DNA from: Streptomyces sp. NBC_01260
GTDB lineage: Bacteria; Actinomycetota; Actinomycetes; Streptomycetales; Streptomycetaceae
DNA length: 64,000 nt
Direction of reading: 5' to 3'
NCBI RefSeq assembly: GCF_036226405.1
Contig: NZ_CP108464.1
Coordinates: 186,001 to 250,000 of the forward strand
Numbering within the stretch: position 1 is the stretch's first letter; each line of letters opens with the position of its first letter. This document shows positions 1 through 22,721 of the stretch, in pieces. The position numbers were made by a program, and so were the translations under genes. Under the pieces are notes generated by a model. The model was not told where the DNA came from. It saw only the letters and a list, made by a program, of their open reading frames with translations, and ran no database searches.

Positions 1-203
1 CGGGCGACCCCGCTCTGGTTGGTGACCACGACCAGAGCGAAGCCCTCCTCCTGAAGGGCGCGCAGCGGTGCACCAATGTCCGGCTGGAGGGCCAGCTCGT
101 CCGGGTGGGCAGGGTAGTGGCGGTGCTCCGTGAGGGTGCCGTCGCGATCGAGGAGGACCGCCGGACGCCGGGGCCGGTCCGCGTTGCCGCCGGTGGCGGT
201 CAC
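1..203 (-). CDS. gmhB: D-glycero-D-manno-heptose bisphosphate phosphatase (HAD family), partial
   Basis: This is the N-terminal part of a HAD-IIIA phosphatase; the rest lies beyond the left edge. Visible motifs are the nucleophile loop LLDRDGTL near residues 17-24 and VVTNQSGVAR near residues 58-67, the latter typical of the GmhB/HisB-N group. GmhB removes the C7 phosphate of heptose 1,7-bisphosphate, the step between the kinase and the nucleotidyltransferase encoded by the fused gene just upstream. The GTG start overlaps that gene's TGA by four bases (GTGA), so the two are probably translationally coupled. HisB-type histidinol phosphatase is the alternative; the heptose neighbour favours GmhB. 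Confidence 0.75.
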   Translation of the reverse strand, partial: MTATGGNADRPRRPAVLLDRDGTLTEHRHYPAHPDELALQPDIGAPLRALQEEGFALVVVTNQSGVA

Positions 204-2188
204 TGGGCACCGACCCGCCCGGTGAGCCGGTCGATCCGGCTGGTGGTCGAATGCCCGTCCAGGTAGGGCACGGTGACGACACTGCCTCCCCAGCTCTCCA
301 CGAGGCCGGCCTCGGGGACGCGCTGCCCCGCGTAGTCGCCGCCCTTGACCCAGACGTCCGGGCGCAGCTCGGCCAGGATCCTCTCGGGGGTGTCCTCGTC
401 GAAGACGAGCACGCCGTCCACGCAATCCAGCGCTTCCAGCAGCATCGCCCGTTCCCGCTCGCCAACGGCTGGTCGGCTCTCGCCCTTGAGACGGCGCACG
501 GAGGCGTCGCTGTTGAGGCACACGATCAGTGTGTCTCCGAGGCGGCGGGCCTGTTCCAGGAGCGCCAAGTGCCCGGCGTGCAGCAGGTCGAAGCATCCCC
601 CGGCGCCGACCACGCGCCCGCCGTGCTTCCGCACACGGGCGGCCAGTTCCTGCGGGTCTGTCGTGGCGGTGACGGGCCGGGCGGTCAGCGAGGAGGGGCC
701 GCCCGAGGTGACGTATTGCGTGGCGGCGTCGACGGCCGCGGCCACCGCGTGCGAGGGCAGTCGTCCGGTGCCCAGCATCAGCGCGGCGGTGACGGCCAGT
801 CGGTCGCCGGCCCCGCAGGCGTCCCCGGTGGCCCGCCGGGCCGGGACGACCAGGGGGTGGCTCTCGGGATCCGCGACGAGGACCGCGCCATCGCAGCCCC
901 GGGTGACGGCCACCTGTTTGACGGGCCATCGGGCGAGCAGCCGTACGGCCCTCGCTGCATCGCCCGCGAGGTCGCGCGGCGCCGCGTCCCCGGTGAGGGC
1001 CAGGGCTTCTTCCGCGTTGGGGACGGCCAGCGCGGTCCCCGGTACCGGGGCGGTGCCCCGGGGATGCGGGTCCCACACCAGTGGTCGGCCCGTGGCCGCA
1101 TCAGTCAGCGCCTGACGGACGTCGTCGTGGGCTGTGATGCCGCGCCCGTAGTCGCAGACGAGGACGGCGGAGGCTTCCGCAAGCCGGGCACGGGCCTCGG
1201 GCGGGAGTGGGCCGAGCCGAAGTGCCGCGGTGCCGACGCTGTCGGCACCGGAGTCACTGTCGGCATCGAATCGCAGCAGTGTACGGCCAGCCGCGCGGAC
1301 GCGGGTCTTCGTCGGCGTGGCGCCTCCAATTGCGAGGCTTATGATCTCCACTCCCGCTTCGTCCAAGAGGGCGCGGACCCGGGCCCCGGGCGCGTCCTGC
1401 CCGAGGCCGCACACGAGGGTGATCCTCCAGTTGGGTTCCCGGGCGGCGAGTGCGGCGGCCAGCCCCGCGCCGCCCGGCCGTTCAGTGGTGCGGACGTTGG
1501 AGACGACGGGGACGGGGGCTTCGGGAGACAGCCGCTCGGCCGTACCGGTGATGTCACGGTCTAGCAGCACGTCGCCGACCACCACCAGCCGCCGTGTGTC
1601 ACCTGGTTCCTCGGCAGCGGCGGCGTCGGCCTCGACGAAGTGGGCGTCGACGGCCGCGCACAGCAGGTGTATGGCGACCAGGTGGCATTCCTGGACGGTC
1701 GCCACCTGGGCGGCGTCCACGTACACGGCCAGATCGCTCGCCTCGGCCAGGGGATTCGGGCCGGGGCCGGTCAGTGCCCAGACGGTCAGGCCCGTCTCCC
1801 GACCCGCCCGGGCTGCGGCGAGCACGTTGGGGCTGGTTCCGGAGGCGGAGAGCAAAAGGAGGACGTCACCGGGCCGCCCGTGCGCGCGGACCTGCCGGGC
1901 GAAGACCTCTTCGGGCCCGTAGTCGTTGGTGAGGGCGGTGACCGAGGAGGAGTCGGCGTGCAGTGCGATCGCCGACAGCGGCGCACGCTCGGCGCGGAAG
2001 CGCCCGACGAGCTCGGAGGTGAGGTGCTGGGCTTCGGCCGCCGAGCCGCCGTTGCCCGCGACCAGGAGCCGCCCGCCGGCCGTCAGGACGGCGGCGAGGG
2101 CTCGACCCCACCGGTCCAGCGCAGCGGTGTCGAGGCGGTGCAATGCCCCGGTCAGGGCATGGATGTGGTCTCGGCCCGATATGGTCAC
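200..2188 (-). CDS. Fused sedoheptulose-7-phosphate isomerase / heptose kinase / nucleotidyltransferase (GmhA-HldE)
   Basis: A 662-residue fusion carrying three steps of ADP-heptose synthesis. Residues about 1-185 are a SIS-fold GmhA isomerase (NGGSA near 46-50; SELVGRF with the likely catalytic Glu near 59; His near 169). Residues about 200-505 are a PfkB/RfaE-type sugar kinase (GAGD near 459-462). Residues about 520-660 are a cytidylyltransferase-like domain (HAGH near 537-540; VKGGDY near 614-619). HldE is normally only kinase plus transferase, with GmhA separate. I chose the GTG at 2188, with GGAAGG seven bases upstream; the open frame extends to 2302, but that part is a repeat region with no domain. 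It lies downstream of the ABC exporter genes and is coupled to the phosphatase after it. Without LPS in a Streptomyces, the product is probably ADP-heptose for a secondary metabolite or glycoconjugate. Confidence 0.88.
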   Translation of the reverse strand: MTISGRDHIHALTGALHRLDTAALDRWGRALAAVLTAGGRLLVAGNGGSAAEAQHLTSELVGRFRAERAPLSAIALHADSSSVTALTNDYGPEEVFARQVRAHGRPGDVLLLLSASGTSPNVLAAARAGRETGLTVWALTGPGPNPLAEASDLAVYVDAAQVATVQECHLVAIHLLCAAVDAHFVEADAAAAEEPGDTRRLVVVGDVLLDRDITGTAERLSPEAPVPVVSNVRTTERPGGAGLAAALAAREPNWRITLVCGLGQDAPGARVRALLDEAGVEIISLAIGGATPTKTRVRAAGRTLLRFDADSDSGADSVGTAALRLGPLPPEARARLAEASAVLVCDYGRGITAHDDVRQALTDAATGRPLVWDPHPRGTAPVPGTALAVPNAEEALALTGDAAPRDLAGDAARAVRLLARWPVKQVAVTRGCDGAVLVADPESHPLVVPARRATGDACGAGDRLAVTAALMLGTGRLPSHAVAAAVDAATQYVTSGGPSSLTARPVTATTDPQELAARVRKHGGRVVGAGGCFDLLHAGHLALLEQARRLGDTLIVCLNSDASVRRLKGESRPAVGERERAMLLEALDCVDGVLVFDEDTPERILAELRPDVWVKGGDYAGQRVPEAGLVESWGGSVVTVPYLDGHSTTSRIDRLTGRVGAQ

Positions 2189-2272
2189 GATGTGCCTTCC
2201 GAAAGGATTGGGACAGGGAGAGGGCCGTTGAAGTCCGGGCGGCACGCGACCACCCGCCCCGGTGTCACACGC

Positions 2273-2289
2273 GCCGGTGTCACACCGGC
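2273..2289. repeat. Short palindrome and direct repeat at the permease stop codon
   Basis: CCGGTGT-C-ACACCGG is a perfect palindrome with 7-bp arms, extended to 8 bp by the flanking G/C. A second copy of CCGGTGTCACAC lies at 2259-2270 and a partial one near 2295. The palindrome covers the stop codon (2280-2282) of the permease gene and precedes the heptose fusion gene. It could be an operator or an RNA hairpin controlling read-through; function is inferred only. Confidence 0.5.
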
Positions 2290-3083
2290 TCGGGTGCGAC
2301 ACCGGCGCGGACGCGCCGGGCCTGAAGCCGCAGCAGAAGAGCGGTCGCGAGCAGCCACAGTCCTGCCACGACCGTCTCGTGCACGACCGCGCCCCACAGC
2401 TCGCCGGCCGTGCCGGTGCCCAGGGAGCGCAGGGCGTCCAGCCCGGCTCCCAGGGGCAGCACCTGGCCGACCAAATGAAGGACGCCCTCCGGACCCACGG
2501 GAACGACCACGCCGGCGCAGAGCAGGATCAGATAGCCGGCGACGTTGACGACGAGCCCCTCGTCAAGGCCGGACAGAGCGAGGGCACAGCAGAACAGGCC
2601 CGTGCAGAGGCAGCCCACCGTGGTGAGGAGCACCAGGGGATACCCGGCCGCAACATCGGCCGTCCCGTGCCCGCCCAGAACGGTCGGCCCCAGGACGAGC
2701 AGCGCCAGGAGCGAGGCCGCCAGCCCTTCGGCGACGTACACCCAGGAGCGCAGGAGCAGGACGACGAGCAGCGGGGTGTCGCCGAGGCGCAGGCGGTACA
2801 TGGTCCCCTGGGGTACCTCGGAGGTCACCACGGCGGAGACATGGCTGGTGACCGCGGCCACCGGGGCGAAGGCGACGGAGCCGACGAACGCGTGGGCGCG
2901 TCCGGCGTCTCCGGCAGTGAGCTGCCCGAGGAGGGTGAAGAAGGCGACCTGGAAGACGGTCCGGACTCCGATGCTGGCCGACGCCGCGAGTCCGGCCGAG
3001 GCGACACGGTAGTCCTTCCACGAAAGATGGCAGATCCTCAGGGCCGTGGTGAGCACATGGCGAACGGTGTCAGGCAAGTTCAA
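2280..3083 (-). CDS. ABC-2 type exporter permease (second of a pair)
   Basis: A 267-residue integral membrane protein with about six hydrophobic segments (strong ones near residues 28-55, 98-125, 130-165, 170-200 and 235-255), as in ABC-2 export permeases of 250-270 residues. It overlaps the previous permease gene by 14 bases, so the pair are probably translated together and form a heterodimeric channel with the ATPase encoded further upstream. The start at 3083 is TTG behind a G-rich stretch; an in-frame GTG at residue 10 is possible but has no ribosome site. The substrate is not evident; the neighbouring peptide gene and adenylating enzyme suggest export of their product. Confidence 0.8.
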   Translation of the reverse strand: MNLPDTVRHVLTTALRICHLSWKDYRVASAGLAASASIGVRTVFQVAFFTLLGQLTAGDAGRAHAFVGSVAFAPVAAVTSHVSAVVTSEVPQGTMYRLRLGDTPLLVVLLLRSWVYVAEGLAASLLALLVLGPTVLGGHGTADVAAGYPLVLLTTVGCLCTGLFCCALALSGLDEGLVVNVAGYLILLCAGVVVPVGPEGVLHLVGQVLPLGAGLDALRSLGTGTAGELWGAVVHETVVAGLWLLATALLLRLQARRVRAGVAPEPV

Positions 3084-3864
3084 GGGTCCCCCCGGCTCGG
3101 CCGCGCCGCAGCACGGCGTTGAACGCCCACACCCCGCCAGCGAGATAGAGCATGGTCAGCAGCAGGACGCCCGCCAGATGCGCGTAGGCGAACGCCCGGC
3201 CGTGGGAGGCGTCTTGGACCAAGCCGGCCACGTGGTGCAGGCTGACGGCCTGGGCCGGCCAGCGCAGCACCGGGGCGAGCATGTCCGGAGGGATGACGAT
3301 GCCGCCGAGGACGAAGACCGGGTAACCGAGGGCCTCGATGATGCGCAGGCCCGCCCGGGAGAGGAAGACGACACAGCTCAGGACGAGCCCCATGGCGGCT
3401 GCGGAGACCACGGCCGCCACAATGACGAGCGCGGCCACCGATGGCCGGGGAAGCTGCGGGTGCAGCCCGAGTACGGGAACGGCGATGGCCGCCGCGGCCA
3501 GGGTGCGTACGAAACCCGCCGCCGCGACACCGAGAGTCTTGCCCAACAGCACCGACAGCAGCGACACCGGGCGGACCAGCAGGGCCGCGAGGGTACCCTG
3601 CGACGCCTCACGACGGAGCAGCGTTCCCGCTCCCCAGAGGGTGGACGACCACAGGGCGATCATCACGACGCCGAACACGATCTCGGTCGTCCGCTCCGGG
3701 CCCAGGTGCGCGCCGTCCCGGGAGACGACGGCCAGCAGCACGACCGGTTGGATCACGGAGACGACCGTCGCGGTCTTGACCTGGGCTGTCTCCCGCATCT
3801 GGAGGACGGCGGCGCGCCACATCGCCCAGGCCTCGGCCTTCGCAACACGAAGAGCCTCACCCAT
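3070..3864 (-). CDS. ABC-2 type exporter permease (first of a pair)
   Basis: A 264-residue membrane protein of the ABC-2 permease type. An N-terminal amphipathic stretch (residues 1-28) is followed by about six membrane segments; LLRREASQGTLAALLVRP near residues 82-99 matches the conserved loop of this family. The ATG at 3864 lies eight bases inside the end of the ATPase gene, and the 3' end overlaps the next permease by 14 bases, so ATPase, permease and permease form a tight operon. It probably pairs with the following permease to make the pore of a drug, peptide or glycolipid exporter. Confidence 0.82.
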   Translation of the reverse strand: MGEALRVAKAEAWAMWRAAVLQMRETAQVKTATVVSVIQPVVLLAVVSRDGAHLGPERTTEIVFGVVMIALWSSTLWGAGTLLRREASQGTLAALLVRPVSLLSVLLGKTLGVAAAGFVRTLAAAAIAVPVLGLHPQLPRPSVAALVIVAAVVSAAAMGLVLSCVVFLSRAGLRIIEALGYPVFVLGGIVIPPDMLAPVLRWPAQAVSLHHVAGLVQDASHGRAFAYAHLAGVLLLTMLYLAGGVWAFNAVLRRGRAGGTLELA

Positions 3865-4834
3865 GGTTCAGCGCCAGTCGTCGCAGCACGGCCTCGACAC
3901 CGGGCGAGGCAACGTCGATGTCCGCCACCGGATGCCGTCGTACGACCTCGGCCAGCCGGTCGAGTACGGCCGCGTCCCAGGCGCCAACCTGGAAGGTGAG
4001 CCTCCACCCTTCCTCGTCCTGATGGATCCGCACGGACGCGTCGGTCAGGAGCGCGGCGGCGTCGCGCGGAGCGACTCCCGGGCCGGACAGCCGCACCTCG
4101 GCGGTGAAACCGGCCTGCTGCCGGAACTCGGCAATGGGCAGGTCGTGGGAGACCGTTCCGGAGTCGAGCAGGACGACCCGGCCCGCCAGGCGGTCGATGT
4201 CCGTGGGGTAATGGCTGGTGAGGATGACCGCCGTGCCCGCGCGGGCGAGGCGGGCGATGGTGTCGCGGACACGCTCCGCCTCCGCGAGGTCGAGGCCGAT
4301 GGTCGGCTCGTCCAGCATGAGCAGGCACGGCCAGTTCAGCAGCCCCACGGCCAGATGGAGGCGTTGCCGCATCCCCTTGGAGAACGTCTCGACCCGGCTC
4401 CCCGCGCGCTCGGCAAGCCCGACCTCTTCCAGGGCAGCGAGCGAGCGCGTACGCAGGTGACGGTGCGATCCGGACAGACCGCCGAAGAACATGATGTTGT
4501 CGAGGGCCGAGAGTCGGGGGTACAAGCCCCGGTCGCCGCCGAAGACCACACTGAGGTGACGTCGCGCCAGGCGCCCATCCCTGGCCAGGTCGATGCCGCA
4601 GACGCTGGCTCCCCCCGCCGACGGCAGGAGGAGCGTGGAGAGGATCTTCAGGAGCGTGGTTTTGCCCGCACCGTTGTCCCCGAGCAGTCCGACAATCTCA
4701 CCGATTCGTACGGTAAGGCCGACCCCGCGCAGTGCCTCGACGGGAGGGGTTCCCTGGAAGGTTCTGCGGAGGTTCTCCACCTGTAGTACTTCTCCGTCCG
4801 GCTGGCACGGCCCTACGACAGTCCTCATCCTCAT
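3857..4834 (-). CDS. ABC exporter ATP-binding subunit
   Basis: A 325-residue DrrA-like ATPase that would power the two ABC-2 permeases encoded after it. Walker A GDNGAGKTT is near residues 52-60, the signature FSKGMRQR near 151-158, Walker B LLMLDEP near 171-177 and the H-loop His near 208. About 100 residues follow the ATPase core, as in drug and glycan exporters of this group. The ATG at 4834 has GAGGTG six bases upstream; a second ATG two codons in is possible. A strong hairpin lies between this gene and the small peptide gene, so transcription may reach it partly by read-through. Confidence 0.9.
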   Translation of the reverse strand: MRMRTVVGPCQPDGEVLQVENLRRTFQGTPPVEALRGVGLTVRIGEIVGLLGDNGAGKTTLLKILSTLLLPSAGGASVCGIDLARDGRLARRHLSVVFGGDRGLYPRLSALDNIMFFGGLSGSHRHLRTRSLAALEEVGLAERAGSRVETFSKGMRQRLHLAVGLLNWPCLLMLDEPTIGLDLAEAERVRDTIARLARAGTAVILTSHYPTDIDRLAGRVVLLDSGTVSHDLPIAEFRQQAGFTAEVRLSGPGVAPRDAAALLTDASVRIHQDEEGWRLTFQVGAWDAAVLDRLAEVVRRHPVADIDVASPGVEAVLRRLALNHG

Positions 4835-4885
4835 TCCACGTCACCTCGTCATATTCCGGGCGTGTGCGGCAGAGACCTGACCTGC

Positions 4886-4916
4886 CCCGGGCTGGCGCGG
4901 CACCGGCCAGCCCGGG
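4886..4916. terminator. Hairpin between the small peptide gene and the ABC operon
   Basis: CCCGGGCTGG (4886-4895) and CCAGCCCGGG (4907-4916) form a perfect 10-bp stem around an 11-base loop. There is no T-run, as is common in Streptomyces. Placed just behind the small peptide gene and before the ATPase gene, it would act as a partial terminator, raising the peptide mRNA relative to the exporter mRNA. Confidence 0.6.
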
Positions 4917-4951
4917 ACCCGGCTTCCGCGGACGGAATTCCGGGCGATCTG

Positions 4952-5014
4952 CTAGATCACGCCGTCGGCGCGAAGGAACTGCTGAATCTGCGCGATGCGC
5001 TCCTCCTTGGTCAT
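4952..5014 (-). CDS. Putative 20-residue peptide (candidate precursor or signal peptide)
   Basis: A very short frame, MTKEERIAQIQQFLRADGVI, ending in TAG. Its ribosome site GGAGGAGGTGA is close to a perfect match to the 16S tail, with eight bases between GGAGG and the ATG. An in-frame GTG three codons earlier would add V-T-D, but it overlaps the ribosome site. The peptide is charged and helical-looking with a hydrophobic C-terminal Val-Ile; it has no Cys, Ser or Trp and only one Thr. It lies 77 bases after the adenylating enzyme gene and before the exporter genes, with a hairpin behind it. I know no family for it. A ribosomal precursor peptide, a leader peptide or a translation-coupling frame are the options; the first is my preferred inference. 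Confidence 0.6.
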   Translation of the reverse strand: MTKEERIAQIQQFLRADGVI

Positions 5015-5091
5015 GTCGGTCACCTCCTCCTCTGATCGGACGACGGGCCTCCCGCAGCGTGGGCGCCGCCTTCACGCCCCACGACCACGCT

Positions 5092-6483
5092 CTACCCGGG
5101 GGCCGTGGACGTGCCGGGGAGGAAGCTCACGAAGTCGACGTCCTTGCGTCGGCCGGCGCTGTGGAAGTCGCCGTCGGCGACCGTCCGCACCCGGCACCTG
5201 ACGCCGGCGCCGAGAACGTCCTCGAGGTTCCGCGTCAGCTCCGCGGCGTCCGCCGCAGTGAATGACGGGGCCGGTGCGACCAGTACAGCCACGGAGAAGT
5301 CCGCCTCCTGCACGATCTGGTAACGCCGAACCGGGTGGCGGCGAGCCGCCCGCGCGACCCAGAGCACGGGAAGAACCGTCCCGTCAGGCCGTCGCAACTC
5401 GCCGGGGTTGCGGCCTTCCACAAGGTCCATCACTTTGTGCGGGAGACCGCAGCCGCACGCGGCGGACGCCAGCGAGCCGAAATCACCGGTCCGGTAGCGG
5501 ATCAGAGGCATCGCCCGATTGGTCAGGTCGGTGATCACGATCTCCCCGGTGTGCCCCTCCGACAGCGGTACACCGTCGTCGTCGACGACCTCCAGCCAGA
5601 GCCGCTCGGACTCGATGTGATAAGAGCCCGCCTCGCACTGCACCGCGATGGTGCCGGCTTCCTTCATCGCGTACATGTCGATCATTGGTAGGCCGAAGAA
5701 CTCCGTGAGCGCTTCCCGTACGGCGGGGACGAGAAGCTCACCGCACGTCACGACGGACCGGACCGACAGCAGCGGGCCGCCGTGCGAGCGCAGCAGCTCC
5801 ATGAAGTCCAAGAGGTTGCGTGGTGTGCCCGCCAGGACGTCCGGACGGAGGCTCCTGGCGCGCTCGGCGAACGCGGCGCGCTCGGCGGATCCGGCGCGGT
5901 CGGACGCCTCGCGTCCCGCGAGACCGAACTGCGCGACCCGCGCGAACCCCGCCCCGGGAGAGGTGTACTCGAACCAGCGGTCCATCCGCGCCAGGCACGG
6001 CATCAGCACCGTACGGTCGAACGCCTTGCCCTGCCGCTGGTTCCTGACGAGCGCGGTAGCCCACTCGTGGACCAGCGCATCATCGTGACGGACCATCCGC
6101 AACGGCACTCCGCTGGTCCCCGACGTCTCCAGAACCCGGCAGGTCGTCGGATCGATGTCGTCGTCGCAATGGTCGACCATGCCCTCGGCCAGCTCGAGCT
6201 TGCTCACCAGAGGGAACGTGGAGAGCAACCGCCAGGGATCTCCCCGGTCATCTGCCGTAATCCCCGCCCGCCGATACGCCGGGACGGCGTCGATGGCGTG
6301 CCGGAGCGACGCGGAAAGGCGCTCGCCCTGCAGGTCCCTGAGTGCTCCGGGCCGTCTCGCGATCTCGGAGTACCGCTCGTACTCCTCGTACACGCGCGGG
6401 AAGAGCAACCCCTCATGGATCAACTGCGACCGCCAGTGCCGCTCGTCCTCCGGCTCCACCAGCGGATCGAATCGCTGCCGCAA
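5092..6483 (-). CDS. CapK/PaaK-type adenylate-forming enzyme
   Basis: A 463-residue member of the phenylacetate-CoA ligase/CapK family, which activates a carboxylate with ATP. The P-loop-like ETSGTSG is near residues 119-125, YAMKEAG near 271-277, GEIVITDL near 313-320 and RYRTGD near 329-334; a CGCG motif near 343-346 may help bind metal. The C-terminal lysine region GRRKDVDF near 444-451 is kept, so the enzyme looks intact and slightly longer than classical PaaK. No thiolation or LuxC-like partner is visible nearby. It is the first gene of the leftward block and the next gene is the 20-residue peptide, whose carboxylate is a conceivable substrate. The start at 6483 is TTG with GGAGG about ten bases upstream, so it is uncertain. 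Confidence 0.85.
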   Translation of the reverse strand: MRQRFDPLVEPEDERHWRSQLIHEGLLFPRVYEEYERYSEIARRPGALRDLQGERLSASLRHAIDAVPAYRRAGITADDRGDPWRLLSTFPLVSKLELAEGMVDHCDDDIDPTTCRVLETSGTSGVPLRMVRHDDALVHEWATALVRNQRQGKAFDRTVLMPCLARMDRWFEYTSPGAGFARVAQFGLAGREASDRAGSAERAAFAERARSLRPDVLAGTPRNLLDFMELLRSHGGPLLSVRSVVTCGELLVPAVREALTEFFGLPMIDMYAMKEAGTIAVQCEAGSYHIESERLWLEVVDDDGVPLSEGHTGEIVITDLTNRAMPLIRYRTGDFGSLASAACGCGLPHKVMDLVEGRNPGELRRPDGTVLPVLWVARAARRHPVRRYQIVQEADFSVAVLVAPAPSFTAADAAELTRNLEDVLGAGVRCRVRTVADGDFHSAGRRKDVDFVSFLPGTSTAPG

Positions 6484-6655
6484 TGCCCCACCGCCTCCGC
6501 TCCGCGCCCGTGTCCAACACCCCGGCGCTGTGCCTCACGCCGACCAGTCTGATGACCGCCTCTTGCGTCGAGCTAACGTCTCGCTAACGCGTCGCTGCTG
6601 AGGTGAGCTTCCCCTCGTAGCGTGGAGTCCGTGACTGCAGGGGAAGTTGGGAGTC

Positions 6656-6749
6656 ATGGCGGAGAAGCGACGAAGGTTCAAGCCGGAGTTCCGTGAGGGA
6701 GCTGTACGGATCGTGACGGAGACGGGCAAGCCGATCGCCCAGACGCTTG
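6656..6749 (+). pseudogene. IS3-family OrfA stump
   Basis: The first 31 codons of an IS3-family OrfA transposase (MAEKRRRFKPEF, then EGAVRIV) are clear and then stop matching near 6749. The helix-turn-helix core is missing. The stump sits just before an HNH gene that has lost its 5' end, so an IS event probably removed both missing parts. Immediately after it, GTGCCTCAC (6749-6757) and GTGAGGCAC (6774-6782) form an inverted repeat that may mark the junction. Confidence 0.7.
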
Positions 6750-6829
6750 TGCCTCACGCTCTCATCACGACCTGTGAGGCACAGCAGGTGGGAACACCTG
6801 TGGCGTACGTGGCTCAGCCCTTCAGAGGC

Positions 6830-7289
6830 TATGCAGACAACCCGGAAGGAAGTCCTCATCGCCGAGGCGGTCAAGGTGCTGGAACAAGGCGCGCGGTGTG
6901 CGCTGACGGGCGGAGAGTGGCTGAGCTACTCCGACGAAGTCACCGTGACCTCCGCGACGAAACTCGATATCGACCACCTCGTGCGGCTCGCCGAAGCCTG
7001 GGATTCCGGGGCATCGAAGTGGGACGCCGACCGGCGCGAGCAGTACGCCGACGACCTCACCGCTGAACGGTCGCTGGTAACGGTCACGGCGAGGACGAAT
7101 CGCAGCAAGGCCGACCGCGACCCCGCGCAGTGGCTTCCGCCGGCCGCGTCCGCGCAGTGCACCTACGGTGCCGACTGGATCGCGACGAAGCTGCGGTGGA
7201 AGCTCACCGCGGACACCAAGGAGCGTGCGGCACTGGCGAAGCTCGCGAAGGGCTGCGCCAACACGGTCGTGAAGTACAAGGTCGGCTGA
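6830..7289 (+). pseudogene. 5'-truncated secreted HNH endonuclease-family protein
   Basis: The frame matches the Streptomyces HNH/DUF1524 secreted protein family from near TRKEVLIAEAV to the C-terminus. The key motif DIDHLVRLAEAWDSGA carries the His of the beta-beta-alpha metal site, and TARTNRSKADRDPAQW follows, with the expected cysteines in the C-terminal part. These proteins usually begin with a signal peptide and about 60-80 further residues; here that part is absent and replaced by unrelated sequence and the IS3 stump. An open frame exists from 6747, but its first 30 residues do not fit. It is probably non-functional, or at least not exported. Confidence 0.72.
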
Positions 7290-7536
7290 CCTGACTTGGG
7301 GTCACCGCATCCGGGTCACGGTCAGTGTCCCGTGCCGGCCTGACCCGGCCAGGATCTCGACCACCAGGTCCGTGTCGATTCCGGTGTACGACCCGTCTCC
7401 GGCCCGCAGTTTCCCCGTCACCGGCGCATCGGCAAGGGCTGTTCCGGCATGCACGGCGAGGACCTGGTCGAGCCGGGCCGACAGCCGGACCCGGTCCTGC
7501 TCGGCGTCGGTGACTAGGGCCCGTATTGGGTTGTGA

Positions 7537-8034
7537 TCACTGAGCGGTTCGCGTGAGGTCCTTGATCCAGATCATGGAGGCCCGGAGGTGGAGTCCGGCT
7601 TGGTAGCTCTCGGGCGTCTTGTCGTAGCGGGTGGCGATGCCGCGCCACGCCTTGAGCTTGTTGATCGAGCGCTCGACCGTGTTCCGTTCCTTGTACAGGG
7701 CGGTGTCGTGAGTGAGAGGCCGGCCGCCCCGGCGGCCTTTCTTCTTCCGGTTGGCGGTCTGGTCCTTCTTCTCCGGGATGACGGCCTTGATGCTGCGTCT
7801 GCGCAGGTAGGCGCGATTGCCGCGCGAGGAGTACGCCTTGTCGCCGGCGACTGCGTCGGGCCGGGTGCGGGGCCTGCCGGCCGGGCCACGGATCCGCAGC
7901 TTGTCGAGAACGGGGATGAACTGCGGGCTGTCGGCGGCCTGTCCCGCGCTCAGAGTCAGCACGAGCGGTCGGCACTGACGGTCGCAGGCGATGTGGACCT
8001 TGCTGGTCTGCCCGCCACGCGAGCGCCCGAGCAA
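7537..8034 (-). CDS. IS5-family transposase, C-terminal frame
   Basis: 165 residues holding the rest of the DDE domain: the second Asp in AVAGDKAYSS near residues 61-70 and the Glu in ERNTVERSINKLKAWRG near 128-144. Its apparent ATG is internal; the upstream frame reads KAALLGRSRGGQTSK, which is the normal junction sequence, so translation is expected by frameshift from the preceding frame. Both catalytic halves look complete, so the element may still be active. Confidence 0.83.
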   Translation of the reverse strand: MLGRSRGGQTSKVHIACDRQCRPLVLTLSAGQAADSPQFIPVLDKLRIRGPAGRPRTRPDAVAGDKAYSSRGNRAYLRRRSIKAVIPEKKDQTANRKKKGRRGGRPLTHDTALYKERNTVERSINKLKAWRGIATRYDKTPESYQAGLHLRASMIWIKDLTRTAQ

Positions 8035-8042
8035 GGCAGCCT

Positions 8043-8528
8043 TCAGCCGGAGCTTGCGGCGCCGCCGGAGACGTCTTCGCCCGGCAGCACCATCGGCTCC
8101 CGGCCCGGTTTGTTCATCTTCGGTGCCCCCTTTGAACGGGCCTTCTCCTCCTCCGCAGCCCTCTCCAGGGCGTCGAGCACTCCGGGGCCCAGACGCATGC
8201 CGGCCGCGTCATGGTGGGCACGGGTGGTGGTGGAGTCCACGCTGACCAGAGAGATATCCACCTCACCCCGCGCGGCCGCCTGCGCGATCAGCCCTTCCAG
8301 CAGGGCCTCGAAAACTCCGGCGTCCCGCCACTGGCGGAAGCGGTTGTGCACGGTGGACCACGCACCGAACTCGGCCGGCATCTCACGCCACTGCGCTCCC
8401 GAGCGGAACTTCCAGATCACGCCCTCGAACTGCTTCCGCAGCCACGCGGGATACGGGCCGTACTCGCCGATCGGCAGGTACGGCTCAACGTACTCCCACT
8501 CCAAGTCCGTCAGTTGCGCCCGTGTCAT
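8043..8528 (-). CDS. IS5-family transposase, N-terminal frame
   Basis: 161 residues with the IS5-type N-terminal region (LTDLEWEYVEPYLP, then FRSGAQWREMP) and the first catalytic Asp in SVDSTTTRAHHDA near residues 96-108. The frame ends at TGA where the second frame takes over. In this group the active enzyme is made by programmed frameshifting between the two frames near 8035-8045, giving a full DDE protein of about 330 residues. Confidence 0.85.
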   Translation of the reverse strand: MTRAQLTDLEWEYVEPYLPIGEYGPYPAWLRKQFEGVIWKFRSGAQWREMPAEFGAWSTVHNRFRQWRDAGVFEALLEGLIAQAAARGEVDISLVSVDSTTTRAHHDAAGMRLGPGVLDALERAAEEEKARSKGAPKMNKPGREPMVLPGEDVSGGAASSG

Positions 8529-11458: not shown

Positions 11459-12381
11459 CGTTCATCGACGAGCACCGGGACCGCTTCGGCGGAGTCGAGC
11501 CGATCTGCAGGACGCTCACCGAGCACGATTGCAGCATCCACCCGTCCACCTACTACGCACACAAGAAGCGCCCGCTGTCAGCCCGTGCCATGCGGGACGC
11601 GGAACTGGCTCCGTTGATCGTGGAGATATTCCGGGACAACTACAGCGTCTACGGGGCCCGCAAGATCTGGGCCGAGCTGAAGCGGCAAGGTCATCAGGTG
11701 GCGCGGTGCACTGTTGAGCGCCTGATGAAAGCCGAGGGCCTCACGGGGGCGGTGCGCGGGAAGAAGATCGTCACCACCAGGGCGGACAAGGAAGCCGACC
11801 GGGCGCCGGACCGGCTGGGCCGGCAGTTCGTGGCCAGCGCCCCCAACCGGGTGTGGGTCGCCGACTTCACCTACGTGGCCACCTGGTCCGGCACCGTCTA
11901 CGTCGCGTTCGTCGTGGACACCTTCTCCCGCCGGATTGTCGGCTGGTCCGCCGCGACGAACAAGCAGACCCCGCTGGTGCTGTCCGCACTCGAGATGGGC
12001 CTGTGGCAACGTGACCGCGCGAACACCCCTGTGATGGCACGGGAGTTGATCCATCACTCCGATGCCGGTTCGCAATACACCAGCTTCCGGCTCGCCGCCC
12101 ACCTGGCGTCCGAACAGATCGCGGCCTCCATCGGCACCGTCGGCGACGCCCTGGACAACGCCCTGATGGAATCGACCATCGGTCTGTACAAAACCGAGCT
12201 GATCAAACCGCAGCGTCCCTGGAAGGCCCTGAGCGACGTCGAGTTGGCCACGGCCGAATGGGCCGACTGGTACAACCACCGACGACTCCACGGTGAAATA
12301 GGACACGTCCCACCAGTCGAATACGAAGCCACCTACTACCAACAGAACACCCAAGAACCGCAGGTCACAGCCACAATCTAG
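11425..12381 (+). CDS. IS3-family transposase OrfB (expressed by frameshift)
   Basis: The rve-type DDE integrase domain: VWVADFTYVATWSG near the middle (first Asp), HHSDAGSQYTS (second Asp) and the Glu in DNALMESTIGLYKTE. Upstream of the first ATG (11590) the frame is already coding (FIDEHRDRFGGVEPICRTL), so the true product is OrfAB made by a -1 shift near 11410-11455; the start given here is approximate. Nothing is visibly broken. Confidence 0.87.
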   Translation, partial: GRARPATHTLVAFIDEHRDRFGGVEPICRTLTEHDCSIHPSTYYAHKKRPLSARAMRDAELAPLIVEIFRDNYSVYGARKIWAELKRQGHQVARCTVERLMKAEGLTGAVRGKKIVTTRADKEADRAPDRLGRQFVASAPNRVWVADFTYVATWSGTVYVAFVVDTFSRRIVGWSAATNKQTPLVLSALEMGLWQRDRANTPVMARELIHHSDAGSQYTSFRLAAHLASEQIAASIGTVGDALDNALMESTIGLYKTELIKPQRPWKALSDVELATAEWADWYNHRRLHGEIGHVPPVEYEATYYQQNTQEPQVTATI

Positions 12382-17843: not shown

Positions 17844-19515
17844 CCTCGATCGTTCATGGGTCCTCGTCGGTTCGCTGATGGGGACTCTGTGCTTGCGAGG
17901 TGCGGAATTTCGTGGGCTGGGGCAGGTTGGCGGCCCGGCTGTCGCGTCGAGTGGGCGCCGGGTTCCACTGCTCCGGGATGTTGCTGGTTCGTCGGGACGG
18001 TTGAAGTGGTTGGTCAGCCGGGGTTCGGCAGGGCTGCGAGTCGCTGGATCGCGCGGGTGATTACATCCGTCCAGGGCCATCGGGCGGTGAAGCGGAGCCA
18101 GCGGCGGCGGCCGGTGGTGACCAGCTGGGCAGCAGCGGAGAACAGCCGAAGGCGGAGCCGCTTGGGTTCCCAGCGGCGGGTTCTGCTGGTCAGGGCGAGC
18201 ATCGGCATCCAGGCGAGGAGGTCGAGTGCGAGGGAGACGATCTCCAGCCAGATCTGGTTCTGTGCGGTGTCGTGCAGCGGCAGGTTGCGCAGGCCGGTGT
18301 CGCGGGCGTTTCGGATCCGGTCCTCGCAGCGGGCCCGCCGTCGATGACGTAGTTCCAGGTCGGCGAGCTGGCCGCCCTTGGTGTTCGTCGCGAAGCAGGT
18401 GAGCCGGAGTCCGTCGAGGTCGGTGAAGCGCAACTGGGCTCCGGGGTGCGGGCGTTCTTTGCGGACGATCAGCCGCATCCCTTTCGGCCAGGTGGTCAGG
18501 TCGGGCATGTCGGTGATCTCTGCGACCCAGGCGCCGGGCCGCTCGGTGCCGTCGGCGTCGTAGGCCGGTGTCCATGCCTTCTTCGGGATCTTCAGGACGG
18601 CCTGGTGGATGGCGTCGGTGATGGTCATTCCGACGGAATACGACAGCCACCGGCCCGGTTTGGAGAGCCAGTCGAGGAAGGCATGGGTCCCGCCGACGGA
18701 GTCGGTGCGGATCAGCGTCTGCCGTCCCCGCCGCAGGTACTTGGGAAGTTGAGCCACGGCGAGGCGGGTGGTCTCGATGTGATCGCTCGCGGTGTTGGAC
18801 CCGGCGTTGCCGGGCCTCAGCAGCGCGGCCACCGGTTCCCCGGACCCGCTCTGGCCGTGGTCGACGAACGCGACGAGCGGATGATGACCGAAGGTCTTCT
18901 TCCAGGTCGCGGTGGCGTCCTGCTTCTCGGAGTGCGCAAGGACGAGCACGCCGTCGATGTCCACGATCACCGAGCCGTCGGCGGCGGGACCGTTCGCCCC
19001 GGCCAGTTCCCAGACATGCGAGCGTACTTCCGCCCGAGCCGACCGGATCGCGGTGAGCGACTTCGGTCCGGCAGCGGCAAGGGCGTCAATGAGCCGTGAA
19101 ACCGTCGGGTCGGATGCCACTGGTCCGAACACGTCGGGCTCGGCCCGCAGCATGGCGACATCGGCGAGGCAGTCCCCGCCCAGAGCGACTCCGAGCGCGA
19201 CATCCAGAAGGATCTTGCCTGGATCATGCACCGTCCGCGGTTCGCGCCACGGCTCCAACGCCGTCGATATCGCGGTGTCCAGACCCAACTTGCGGACCGT
19301 CTCGACCAACAGCACCGCGCCAGCCTGCGAGACCGTCCCGCTGCCACCGCCCTCGACACGGACACGCGGGTACAACCCGATACGCTTACTCACCTGGAGA
19401 GTGCTTCTTTCCGTGCAGCCAACAGGACCCTAGACAAGTCCCATCGTTGCAGGTCAGAAGCACTCTCCGCTTATTTGATCAAGACCCGGACAGGCTCACT
19501 CACGAAAGCCCGAGG
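17844..19515 (-). mobile_element. IS1380-family element, complete
   Basis: 1672 bp with imperfect ends CCTCGATCGTTCATGGGT (left) and CCTCGGGCTTTCGTGAGT (right, reverse complement). A 4-bp TTAG duplication flanks it (17840-17843 and 19516-19519), as expected for IS1380. It is inserted at the outer edge of the ISAzo13 element. Confidence 0.82.
18014..19393 (-). CDS. IS1380-family transposase
   Basis: 459 residues. Hallmarks are LGVALGGDCLADVAMLR, SDPTVSRLIDAL, the DDE block VDIDGVLVLAHSEKQ and the long central region with RTDSVGGTHAFLDWL. The gene is intact from the ATG at 19393. The region from 19394 to the element's right end holds a GC-poor leader with GAGAGTGCTTC repeated in inverted orientation (about 19397 and 19459), perhaps limiting expression. 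Confidence 0.9.
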   Translation of the reverse strand: MSKRIGLYPRVRVEGGGSGTVSQAGAVLLVETVRKLGLDTAISTALEPWREPRTVHDPGKILLDVALGVALGGDCLADVAMLRAEPDVFGPVASDPTVSRLIDALAAAGPKSLTAIRSARAEVRSHVWELAGANGPAADGSVIVDIDGVLVLAHSEKQDATATWKKTFGHHPLVAFVDHGQSGSGEPVAALLRPGNAGSNTASDHIETTRLAVAQLPKYLRRGRQTLIRTDSVGGTHAFLDWLSKPGRWLSYSVGMTITDAIHQAVLKIPKKAWTPAYDADGTERPGAWVAEITDMPDLTTWPKGMRLIVRKERPHPGAQLRFTDLDGLRLTCFATNTKGGQLADLELRHRRRARCEDRIRNARDTGLRNLPLHDTAQNQIWLEIVSLALDLLAWMPMLALTSRTRRWEPKRLRLRLFSAAAQLVTTGRRRWLRFTARWPWTDVITRAIQRLAALPNPG

Positions 19516-21305: not shown

Positions 21306-22721
21306 GTGTGATGCGCCAGAAATCCTGATGGTTAGTTCTGCCCTGTCTGCTGGCTATCGGTTCCGACCTTGGCGAGGTAATCGGCGAGGGAGTTGAGGAT
21401 CTCGTCGGCGGTCTTGGTCCAGGTGAAGGGCCTTGGGTTCTCGTTCCAGGTGTCGATCCATGCGGTGATGTCGTCCTCCAGGGCCTTCACGGACCTGTGG
21501 ACGCCGCGGCGAATGAGCTTGTCGGTCAACAGGCCGAACCACCGCTCGACCTGGTTCATCCAGGAGGAGCCGGTCGGAGTGAAGTGGATGTGGAAGCGGG
21601 GGTGTTTGCCCAGCCAGGTTTTGATCTCGGCGGTGTTGTGGGTGGCGTAGTTGTCACAGACGAGATGGACGTCGAGCCCGACGGGCACCGCTTTGTCGAT
21701 CCGGATCAGGAACTTCTTGAACTCAATCGCGCGGTGGCGGCGGTGAAGCTGAGATATGACGGTGCCGTCAGTGATGTTGAAGGCGGCGAACAGGCTGGTG
21801 ATGCCATGCCGGTAATAGTCGTGGGTCCGGCGTTCGGGCATGCCCGGCATCATCGGCAGGACCGGCTGTGAGCGGTCCAGGGCCTGGATCTGGGATTTCT
21901 CGTCCACGCAGAGCACGACCGCCTTCTCGGGCGGGTGATGGTACAAACCGACGACATCGACGACCTTGGCGACGAACTGCGGGTCGGTGGACAGTTTGAA
22001 GGAGTCCTGCAGGTGCGGCTTGAGGTCGAACTTCTTCCAGATCCGGCCGATGGTCGACTTCGACAGGCCGGTGCGCTGAGCCATCGAGGCCCGTGACCAG
22101 TGGGTGTCTCTGCCCGCGGTCGACTCCAGGGTGGCCACGACGACCTCCTCGACCTGGTCGAGAAGGATCGAGGGTGGCCGACCCGAGCGGGGCTCGTCGT
22201 GCAGACCGTCGAGGCGTTGGGCGATGAACCGGGCCCGCCAGCGGTCCACGGTCGATCTGTCGACGCCGAGGTCGGCCGCGGCCTGCTGGTTCGTCCCGCC
22301 CTCCGCGCAGCGCAGCACGATCTTGGCTCGCAACGCGAGGAACTGGGCGGTCTTCGCCCGCCGCGCCCACTGCGTCAGCTGCGTCCGCTCAGCCTCGTTC
22401 AGGACCAGGTCGGCCTTGGGTCGGCCGATCCAGCCGGCGTCCTCAAGCCCGGCCATCCGCTCTGCGGCGAAAGCCCGACGCCACTTGCCAACCGTCTTGG
22501 CCTGGACACCGACGACGCGTGCGACACCCGCGTTCGACATGCCCTCAGCGCACGCCAGGAGGATCCGAGCCTTCTCGGCCGAGCGCCGGTCTGGCCATTC
22601 CGTCCGGCGCACCAACTCGGCACGCTCTTCCCCTGACAACGTGATCTTCACAGCAGAAGGGCCGGGATGTGACATGACAACAGGGTACTGACTAACCATC
22701 AGGATTTCTGGCGCATCACAC
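21306..22721 (-). mobile_element. IS630-family element, complete
   Basis: 1416 bp with perfect 31-bp terminal inverted repeats starting GTGTGATGCGCCAGAAATCC, flanked by TA on each side (21304-21305 and 22722-22723), the TA target duplication expected of IS630/Tc1-mariner elements. The single transposase gene is intact. Confidence 0.93.
21332..22675 (-). CDS. IS630-family transposase
   Basis: 447 residues from the ATG at 22675; eight extra codons to 22699 would overlap the terminal repeat. Two helix-turn-helix units ([38 protein letters not shown]) precede the DDE domain: [19 protein letters not shown] (Asp), [15 protein letters not shown] (Asp) and [18 protein letters not shown] (Glu). All catalytic residues are present. 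Confidence 0.93.

Follow-up and report, generated by a model that had tools for sequence, protein, structure and literature searches.

A seven-gene block contains a 20-codon gene

We analyzed a stretch of DNA of 64,000 nucleotides from Streptomyces sp. NBC_01260 (hereafter the window), which corresponds to bases 186001-250000 of a 9.12-Mb contig. At its left end lie seven leftward genes: capK, encoding a CapK/PaaK-type adenylate-forming ligase; a 20-codon gene; the genes for an ABC transporter ATPase and two ABC-2 permeases; a gene for a GmhA-HldE fusion; and a gene for a GmhB-type phosphatase. A preliminary description, made from the sequence alone, had named these genes by their domains; their positions were confirmed, and Pfam and NCBIfam support the names. 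The 20-codon gene is a real, conserved gene tied to CapK and the exporter. The features of the block are as follows.

5092-6483, minus strand: CapK/PaaK-type adenylate-forming ligase (463 amino acids, TTG start; Pfam AMP-binding)
5020-5027, minus strand: Shine-Dalgarno sequence GGAGGTGA of the small gene, identified by sequence (pattern match at G000:C1:191004-191027)
4952-5014, minus strand: gene for the 20-residue peptide MTKEERIAQIQQFLRADGVI, kept in genomes G188 and G482, in Streptomyces sp. MJM8645 and in Embleya, with a related 20-mer in S. cadmiisoli
4886-4945, minus strand: two predicted stem-loops immediately 3' of the peptide gene (fold of 110 nucleotides past the stop)
3857-4834, minus strand: ABC transporter ATPase (Pfam ABC_tran; top NCBIfam match drrA, below cut-off)
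3070-3864, minus strand: ABC-2 permease 1 (Pfam ABC2_membrane), overlapping the end of the ATPase gene
2280-3083, minus strand: ABC-2 permease 2 (Pfam ABC2_membrane), overlapping the permease 1 gene
200-2188, minus strand: GmhA-HldE fusion (isomerase, heptose kinase and heptose-1-phosphate adenylyltransferase; 662 amino acids; SIS_2, PfkB and CTP_transf_like)
1-203, minus strand: first part of the GmhB-type phosphatase (199 amino acids overall), which continues past the left edge of the window

The gmhB gene starts at 203 with a GTGA overlap and ends at L004:19604, which is 396 bases beyond the left edge of the window. The GmhA-HldE gene probably starts at the GTG at 2188. From the overlaps and the gene order, the seven genes appear to form one transcript. 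Control of the bldA type was dropped as a candidate, as the six operon genes examined (gmhB not among them) contain no TTA codon. The near-perfect ribosome site attributed earlier to the small gene is indeed present, as GGAGGTGA at 5027-5020.

The small gene accompanies capK in relatives

The peptide MTKEERIAQIQQFLRADGVI recurs unchanged in an S. roseoviridis-like genome (G482; 20/20 residues) and is nearly identical in an S. bambusae-like genome (G188; MTKEERIAQIQQFLRPDGVI, 19/20), in Streptomyces sp. MJM8645 (MTKEERIAQIQQFFRADGVI, 19/20) and in Embleya sp. NBC_00888 (MTKEERIAQILQFLRGDGVA, 17/20); CapK identity to the window drops to 64%. The preliminary description had proposed looking for capK, the 20-codon gene and the ABC-2 trio together in other genomes, and the whole unit is present in the window and in these four genomes, with the trio also in S. 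cadmiisoli. G188 (CapK 85% identical) holds the full operon in the same order, plus an HldD-like epimerase gene between hldE and gmhB, and the operon is retained without the epimerase in G482 and MJM8645 (L017, G465). Among the five operons, this epimerase was found only in G188 and Embleya and not in the window, MJM8645 or G482. In Embleya, 13 kb separates the capK-peptide-ABC-permease-permease unit from a second capK, whose surroundings include the epimerase gene, gmhA-hldE and, on the opposite strand, gmhB. The second capK (L101:33055-34640) is intact in length; its adjoining peptide gene is frameshifted and was counted as decayed.

More distant members carry the peptide gene on the other side of capK. 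A plasmid of S. cadmiisoli encodes a CapK of 38% identity, an ABC ATPase and two permeases, with AAGGAGGTGA and MTKETMIKSIRELSSLGDGH immediately before capK. Its neighbors (L102:2596-20557) include a radical SAM protein (B12-binding domain match below cut-off), two Gfo/Idh proteins, AsnB, citramalate synthase, a CoA-transferase, a P450, a beta-lactamase-like hydrolase and an AdoHcyase-like protein. In G398 (genus g14; CapK 29%), AAGGAGGTGAATTCA ATG stands before capK and encodes MTITLKEAA; behind capK lie a frame without a Pfam match, a PhyH dioxygenase, an ABC ATPase and membrane-protein-like frames (one scanned, no Pfam match). The G029 locus (CapK 28%) has MGIDVKEAW before capK, or MNMGIDVKEAW from an alternative start two codons earlier, and the gene for an MFS exporter on the far side of capK. 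On plasmid pFRL2 (Streptomyces sp. FR1), MSFETTEATF precedes capK, and 11 of 13 proteins in the pFRL2 cluster, from a SIR2 gene to an enolase-like gene, match those of G029 at 46-76%. Neither of the two plasmid records with gene tables annotates the peptide gene.

The pFRL2 and G029 clusters (L122:7323-18998 and L015:4668-17252) share a wider gene set: a nucleotide-sugar dehydrogenase, a deacetylase, a family-2 glycosyltransferase, Ldh, CapK with its mini-peptide, an MFS protein, Gfo/Idh, an isomerase and a sulfotransferase. They are perhaps an undescribed natural-product locus. A decaying relic was seen in G128, where an N-terminal CapK fragment of about 100 residues remains (L014:8239-8544) and no MTKE-type start occurs in the 20 kb read; with only a fragment, G128 was excluded from the counts.

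The peptide gene follows capK in the five window-type loci and precedes it in S. cadmiisoli, G398, G029 and pFRL2, so a fixed position after capK, which we had considered, failed at S. cadmiisoli. The gene behind the peptide gene is accordingly the ABC ATPase gene in five loci and capK in four. Because its side of capK differs among loci, the peptide gene goes with capK and not with one fixed downstream gene.

Loss of the small frame from relatives that keep the CapK and ABC genes had been named beforehand as an outcome that would speak against the proposed peptide system, and this test did not refute it. Among ten full-length capK genes of this clade with readable DNA, an intact peptide gene with a strong Shine-Dalgarno sequence lies beside nine and a decayed copy beside one. 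We scored this association with a rule: AAGGAGG, GGAGGTG or AGGAGGT followed by an ATG and 8-25 codons, at most 500 bases before or 300 bases after the matched ligase stretch. The rule held at all eight clade loci other than the window (in Embleya via the first copy) and at none of 79 PaaK-like control loci, of which 8 are from Streptomycetaceae and one (L062) has less than 500 bases upstream. A looser rule picked up unrelated mini-ORFs (open reading frames) at 7 of the 79 controls. The two CapK-like genes of G034 have no such peptide beside either ligase, and this locus fails both the strong-Shine-Dalgarno rule and the looser one.

Seven of the eight scored loci went into shaping the rule, and the Fisher value computed from it is not to be read literally. 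An earlier scan of L014-L016 with a longer minimum length gave nothing at G029; the 9-residue frame of G398 was then spotted by eye, the length limit was lowered, and the G029 frame was found only afterwards. The sole independent test is pFRL2. It was picked from among the CapK relatives that the G398 ligase retrieved at the protein level, when its DNA had yet to be read, and there the rule held.

A 54-row tree placed the ten peptide-linked CapKs in one group (support 98/96) together with 16 further proteins and no control row. Other CapKs of the clade include those of Hamadaea tsunoensis, Micromonospora sp. NBRC 107095, Actinoplanes derwentensis, S. decoyicus and S. antioxidans. Outside it fell both G034 copies and 26 control rows (27 were sampled from the 79, and L051 was dropped for length).

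The near-constant company of peptide gene and ligase could also mean that the peptide is a small accessory subunit of CapK, a stabilizer or allosteric partner and not a substrate. It would account for a peptide gene, once decayed, beside every readable full-length clade capK, and for the conservation within the window type. A subunit would not be expected to vary between 9, 10 and 20 residues with so little common sequence, however, and the strong Shine-Dalgarno sequence suggests high output. The second Embleya capK, intact despite its broken peptide gene, speaks against a strict subunit, as it does against any strict need in cis. We regard this explanation as very improbable.

The peptides share an acidic residue near their ends

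Eight distinct peptides are known from these loci: five of 20 residues, including MTKEERIAQIQQFLRADGVI and the most divergent, MTKETMIKSIRELSSLGDGH, and the three of 9-10 residues from G398, G029 and pFRL2. Every one of the eight contains one Asp-Gly or Glu-Ala, whose acidic residue occupies the third or fourth position counted back from the C-terminus. Behind this pair, the final one or two residues vary (four of the eight peptides being close relatives), the very last being I, A, H, A, W or F. The start of the window-type gene is distinctive: the pattern GGAGGTGA-N4-7-ATGACSAARGA matched known loci only (3 places in 2 of 295 genomes), and its backwards control gave zero among the rows listed.

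A short ORF with a strong Shine-Dalgarno sequence and a predicted stem-loop behind it is also what a regulatory leader would look like. Ribosome progress would then control the hairpin and the genes behind, and CapK would activate a free small acid that is joined to a heptose-derived compound and exported; that no glycosyltransferase lies in the operon or directly left of it would suit this view. Past the peptide stop, the 110 nucleotides of the window fold with a dG of -54.6, against a locus background of -42.7 (standard deviation 8.7), a modest excess. Stems were predicted past the stop in all nine intact loci folded, seven of which exceed their locus background by 1.1-2.6 standard deviations. 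Conservation of the amino acid sequence, including an Asp-Gly or Glu-Ala close to the C-terminus of 8/8 peptides, in front of genes that differ speaks against a leader. There is also no clear run of a single codon, though the window type has three Gln codons close together, and a known RNA leader was dropped from consideration when Rfam gave no match in window 1-8000. A leader ORF is thus unlikely in our estimation.

The variable ends invite a different explanation, in which the peptide is a scaffold. PEARL pathways (ammosamide, 3-thiaglutamate) use a ribosomal peptide as a platform for C-terminal chemistry and draw on aminoacyl-tRNA, and the TglA scaffold has 50 residues. By analogy, the peptides here would carry their last residue or residues through tailoring, and a small molecule derived from Ile, Ala, His, Trp or Phe would be released and exported. 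The variation of the last residue behind a conserved Asp-Gly or Glu-Ala is as expected for a scaffold, and the matching clusters of pFRL2 and G029 both end their peptides in an aromatic residue. The peptides here have 9-20 residues, and 9 would be very short for a scaffold. By Pfam, no LanB-like tRNA-dependent ligase of the PEARL type was found among the scanned proteins, some flanking ORFs being unscanned, and no dedicated protease was seen. We rank this below the leader, as improbable.

CapK is a PaaK-type ligase without an NCBIfam family

The AlphaFold 2 model of CapK has a mean pLDDT of 88, and Foldseek matched it to BT_0428, PaaK1, ClxA, NatL2 and AjiA1. Residues T120, S121, G122, T123, G125, C283, H289, C343, C345 and K447 are invariant in a 24-row alignment. 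The window CapK has the fold, the TSGTSG loop and the C-terminal Lys of the PaaK-type ANL superfamily. It thus shares fold and motifs with known PaaK-type ligases (BagE/FevW, NatL2, AjiA1, ClxA, the DVU_1553 family) but scores below cut-off for all NCBIfam models, among them DVU_1553, PaaK and BagE/FevW. A plain phenylacetate-CoA ligase (PaaK, TIGR02155) was rejected, at 83.1 bits against a cut-off of 646.3. Those ligases act on small aromatic acids, and some form amides or esters in natural-product pathways. We know of no peptide gene beside any of them and, to our knowledge, no class of ribosomal peptides is defined by an ANL enzyme.

In function, the nearest parallel is microcin C, which has dedicated export. 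There, a hairpin terminator stands between the 7-codon precursor gene and the gene for an adenylating enzyme that modifies the peptide C-terminus (PMC6495379). Both systems combine a tiny ribosomal peptide gene (of conserved length in microcin C), a hairpin behind it (predicted here) and an adenylating-type enzyme. MccB is ThiF-like, however, and its precursors end in Asn, whereas the ligase here is PaaK-type (ANL) and the peptides, of 9, 10 or 20 residues, have no Asn end. As the ligase comes from another superfamily, membership in the microcin C family fails, though by analogy CapK may work on its peptide in a similar way.

The heptose genes are one branch of a variable set

ADP-D,D-heptose is normally made by GmhA, HldE and GmhB. 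Domains for the isomerase, the kinase, the phosphatase and the adenylyltransferase were all found in the operon, making the ADP-heptose set complete by domains. Only HldE domain II scored above its NCBIfam cut-off (182.2 against 181.5 bits), and the top match of the phosphatase was GmhB, below cut-off. The fusion contains the motifs GAGD, HAGH and STTSR. STTxR at the HldE C-terminus (window 203-260) is present in four of the five operons, the exception being Embleya. An arginine near STT is reported to permit synthesis of CDP- or UDP-heptose as well, and NDP-heptose is named as a precursor of septacidin in Streptomyces fimbriatus (PMC11461863); the likeness to STTxR is by motif only. The GmhA, HldE and GmhB activities in common with the ADP-heptose pathway and septacidin are, in our case, predicted from domains.

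In its own genome, the only HldE above cut-off is that of the operon (two copies, one in each copy of the repeat described below), and a third match is weak. Heptosyltransferase PF01075 gave no match there, although the control was positive in 5 of 14 known genomes; glycosyltransferases of other families were not searched genome-wide. This sets the locus apart from heptose use of the lipopolysaccharide type. A lone HldE without PF01075 means that either a glycosyltransferase of another family, encoded elsewhere, would use the sugar nucleotide or CapK itself would link a heptose derivative to the peptide. The glycosyltransferase that the preliminary description expected to the left did not appear: beyond gmhB the sequence holds a weak remnant of an IS4/5-type transposase (DUF4096, below cut-off) and then a phospholipase C gene.

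These genes could instead belong to a cell-surface glycan locus, in which CapK, ADP-heptose and the ABC-2 system build and export a heptose polymer and the peptide is incidental. ABC-2 and CapK are names met in capsule loci, the operon has the GmhA, HldE and GmhB domains, and the G029 and pFRL2 clusters include a family-2 glycosyltransferase, a deacetylase and a nucleotide-sugar dehydrogenase. Against this, no glycosyltransferase lies in the window operon or directly left of it, PF01075 has no match in the genome, and the ATPase is closest to drrA. Of the explanations weighed here, we give this one the least credence.

The idea of heptose as an essential part of the system finds no support. 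S. cadmiisoli, G398, G029 and pFRL2 have the peptide and CapK with no heptose-gene match in the 19-31 kb read at each (31 kb in S. cadmiisoli), which makes heptose one interchangeable branch.

The system is rare, and the window operon lies among mobile elements

A CapK search of genus genomes at 1e-30 gave 5/295 (two intact operons, one fragment and two distant relatives). Other samples, which overlap and were searched at differing thresholds, gave 3/394 family genomes, 4/392 genus genomes, 2/70 of genus g14 and 3/81 relatives of S. cadmiisoli, and a search with the pFRL2 ligase gave 1/71 genus genomes. A class-level sample yielded the genome of the window itself and no new member (1/394). The peptide-CapK system is rare, although the large searches scored only a few best candidates per genome, so absence in them counts for little.

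Block 200-6483 is present twice on the contig, the second copy being identical and inverted (G000:C1:8931878-8938161). The left copy is preceded by 186,199 bases and the right copy is followed by 186,193, as expected if both lay in the terminal inverted repeat of a Streptomyces-type chromosome, whose linearity we infer. Two IS4/5-type transposase frames stand on the right-hand side of capK (window 7537-8528); together with the remnant on the left, they place the operon amid insertion-sequence debris. Further transposase frames of several families lie at window 11590-12378, 18017-19393 and 21335-22699 and at L004:14162-15874 and 18812-19432. The block is probably a small mobile biosynthetic operon. 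Of the nine intact loci, four belong to records labeled as plasmids or to the terminal repeat, which would fit horizontal spread.

A candidate pathway for a modified peptide

Across the loci the peptide, CapK and an exporter are constant, whereas the tailoring set varies, as does the kind of exporter in G029 and pFRL2. A constant core of this kind with varying tailoring has the architecture of a ribosomal peptide pathway, and the cluster contains a precursor-like peptide gene conserved in relatives, as expected of a ribosomally synthesized and post-translationally modified peptide (RiPP). On sequence grounds, we somewhat favor the reading that the operon directs the synthesis of a peptide product that is made on the ribosome, modified and exported, and that belongs to a RiPP-like family with a PaaK-type ligase. 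Peptide coupling and export now appear to be the most economical account of the genes.

CapK would bind the peptide, adenylate a carboxylate near its end and couple it to a nucleophile. Because Asp-Gly or Glu-Ala stands near the end of every peptide, the activated carboxylate is probably C-terminal or else sits on the conserved Asp or Glu side chain two or three residues before the last. In the window branch, GmhA, HldE and GmhB should make ADP-D,D-heptose, with heptose the likely partner or decoration, and the ABC-2 exporter would secrete the product. Other branches would rely on other neighbors: the B12 radical SAM protein, AsnB and citramalate synthase in S. cadmiisoli; the PhyH dioxygenase in G398; and Gfo/Idh, the isomerase and the sulfotransferase, with an MFS exporter, in G029 and pFRL2. 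A bolder version, which we regard as speculative and doubtful, is a new class of ribosomal peptides with an ANL ligase that adenylates a carboxylate of the 9- to 20-residue precursor and joins it straight to a partner, in this branch a heptose; the heptosyl-peptide ester or amide would form without a glycosyltransferase and leave through the ABC-2 pair.

Several observations count against a modified, exported peptide. The operon contains no glycosyltransferase, which leaves heptose attachment unexplained, and no obvious protease or immunity gene; heptose genes were not found at four of the nine intact peptide-CapK loci in the DNA read. Codon differences over ten non-independent pairs (27 synonymous, 19 non-synonymous) indicate purifying selection that is not extreme. 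The stem excess falls to 0.5 standard deviations in pFRL2 and is nil in G029, which makes the hairpin weak evidence. The 16 additional clade proteins (from Hamadaea, Micromonospora, Actinoplanes, S. olivaceoviridis and others) entered the tree by protein only. Finally, the 9-10-residue and 20-residue peptides share little sequence, so their common descent is inferred from position and CapK clade.

The earlier claim that no described pathway has this set of genes still stands: in the literature searched, which left subscription journals mostly uncovered, we found neither a CapK/PaaK ligase with a ribosomal precursor nor a described equivalent of the operon. Peptide genes as short as 9 residues escape the usual gene callers and precursor searches, so that a whole family of natural products may have gone unnoticed. 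Related gene sets encode still smaller peptides, which suggests that these peptide natural products form a family not yet described.

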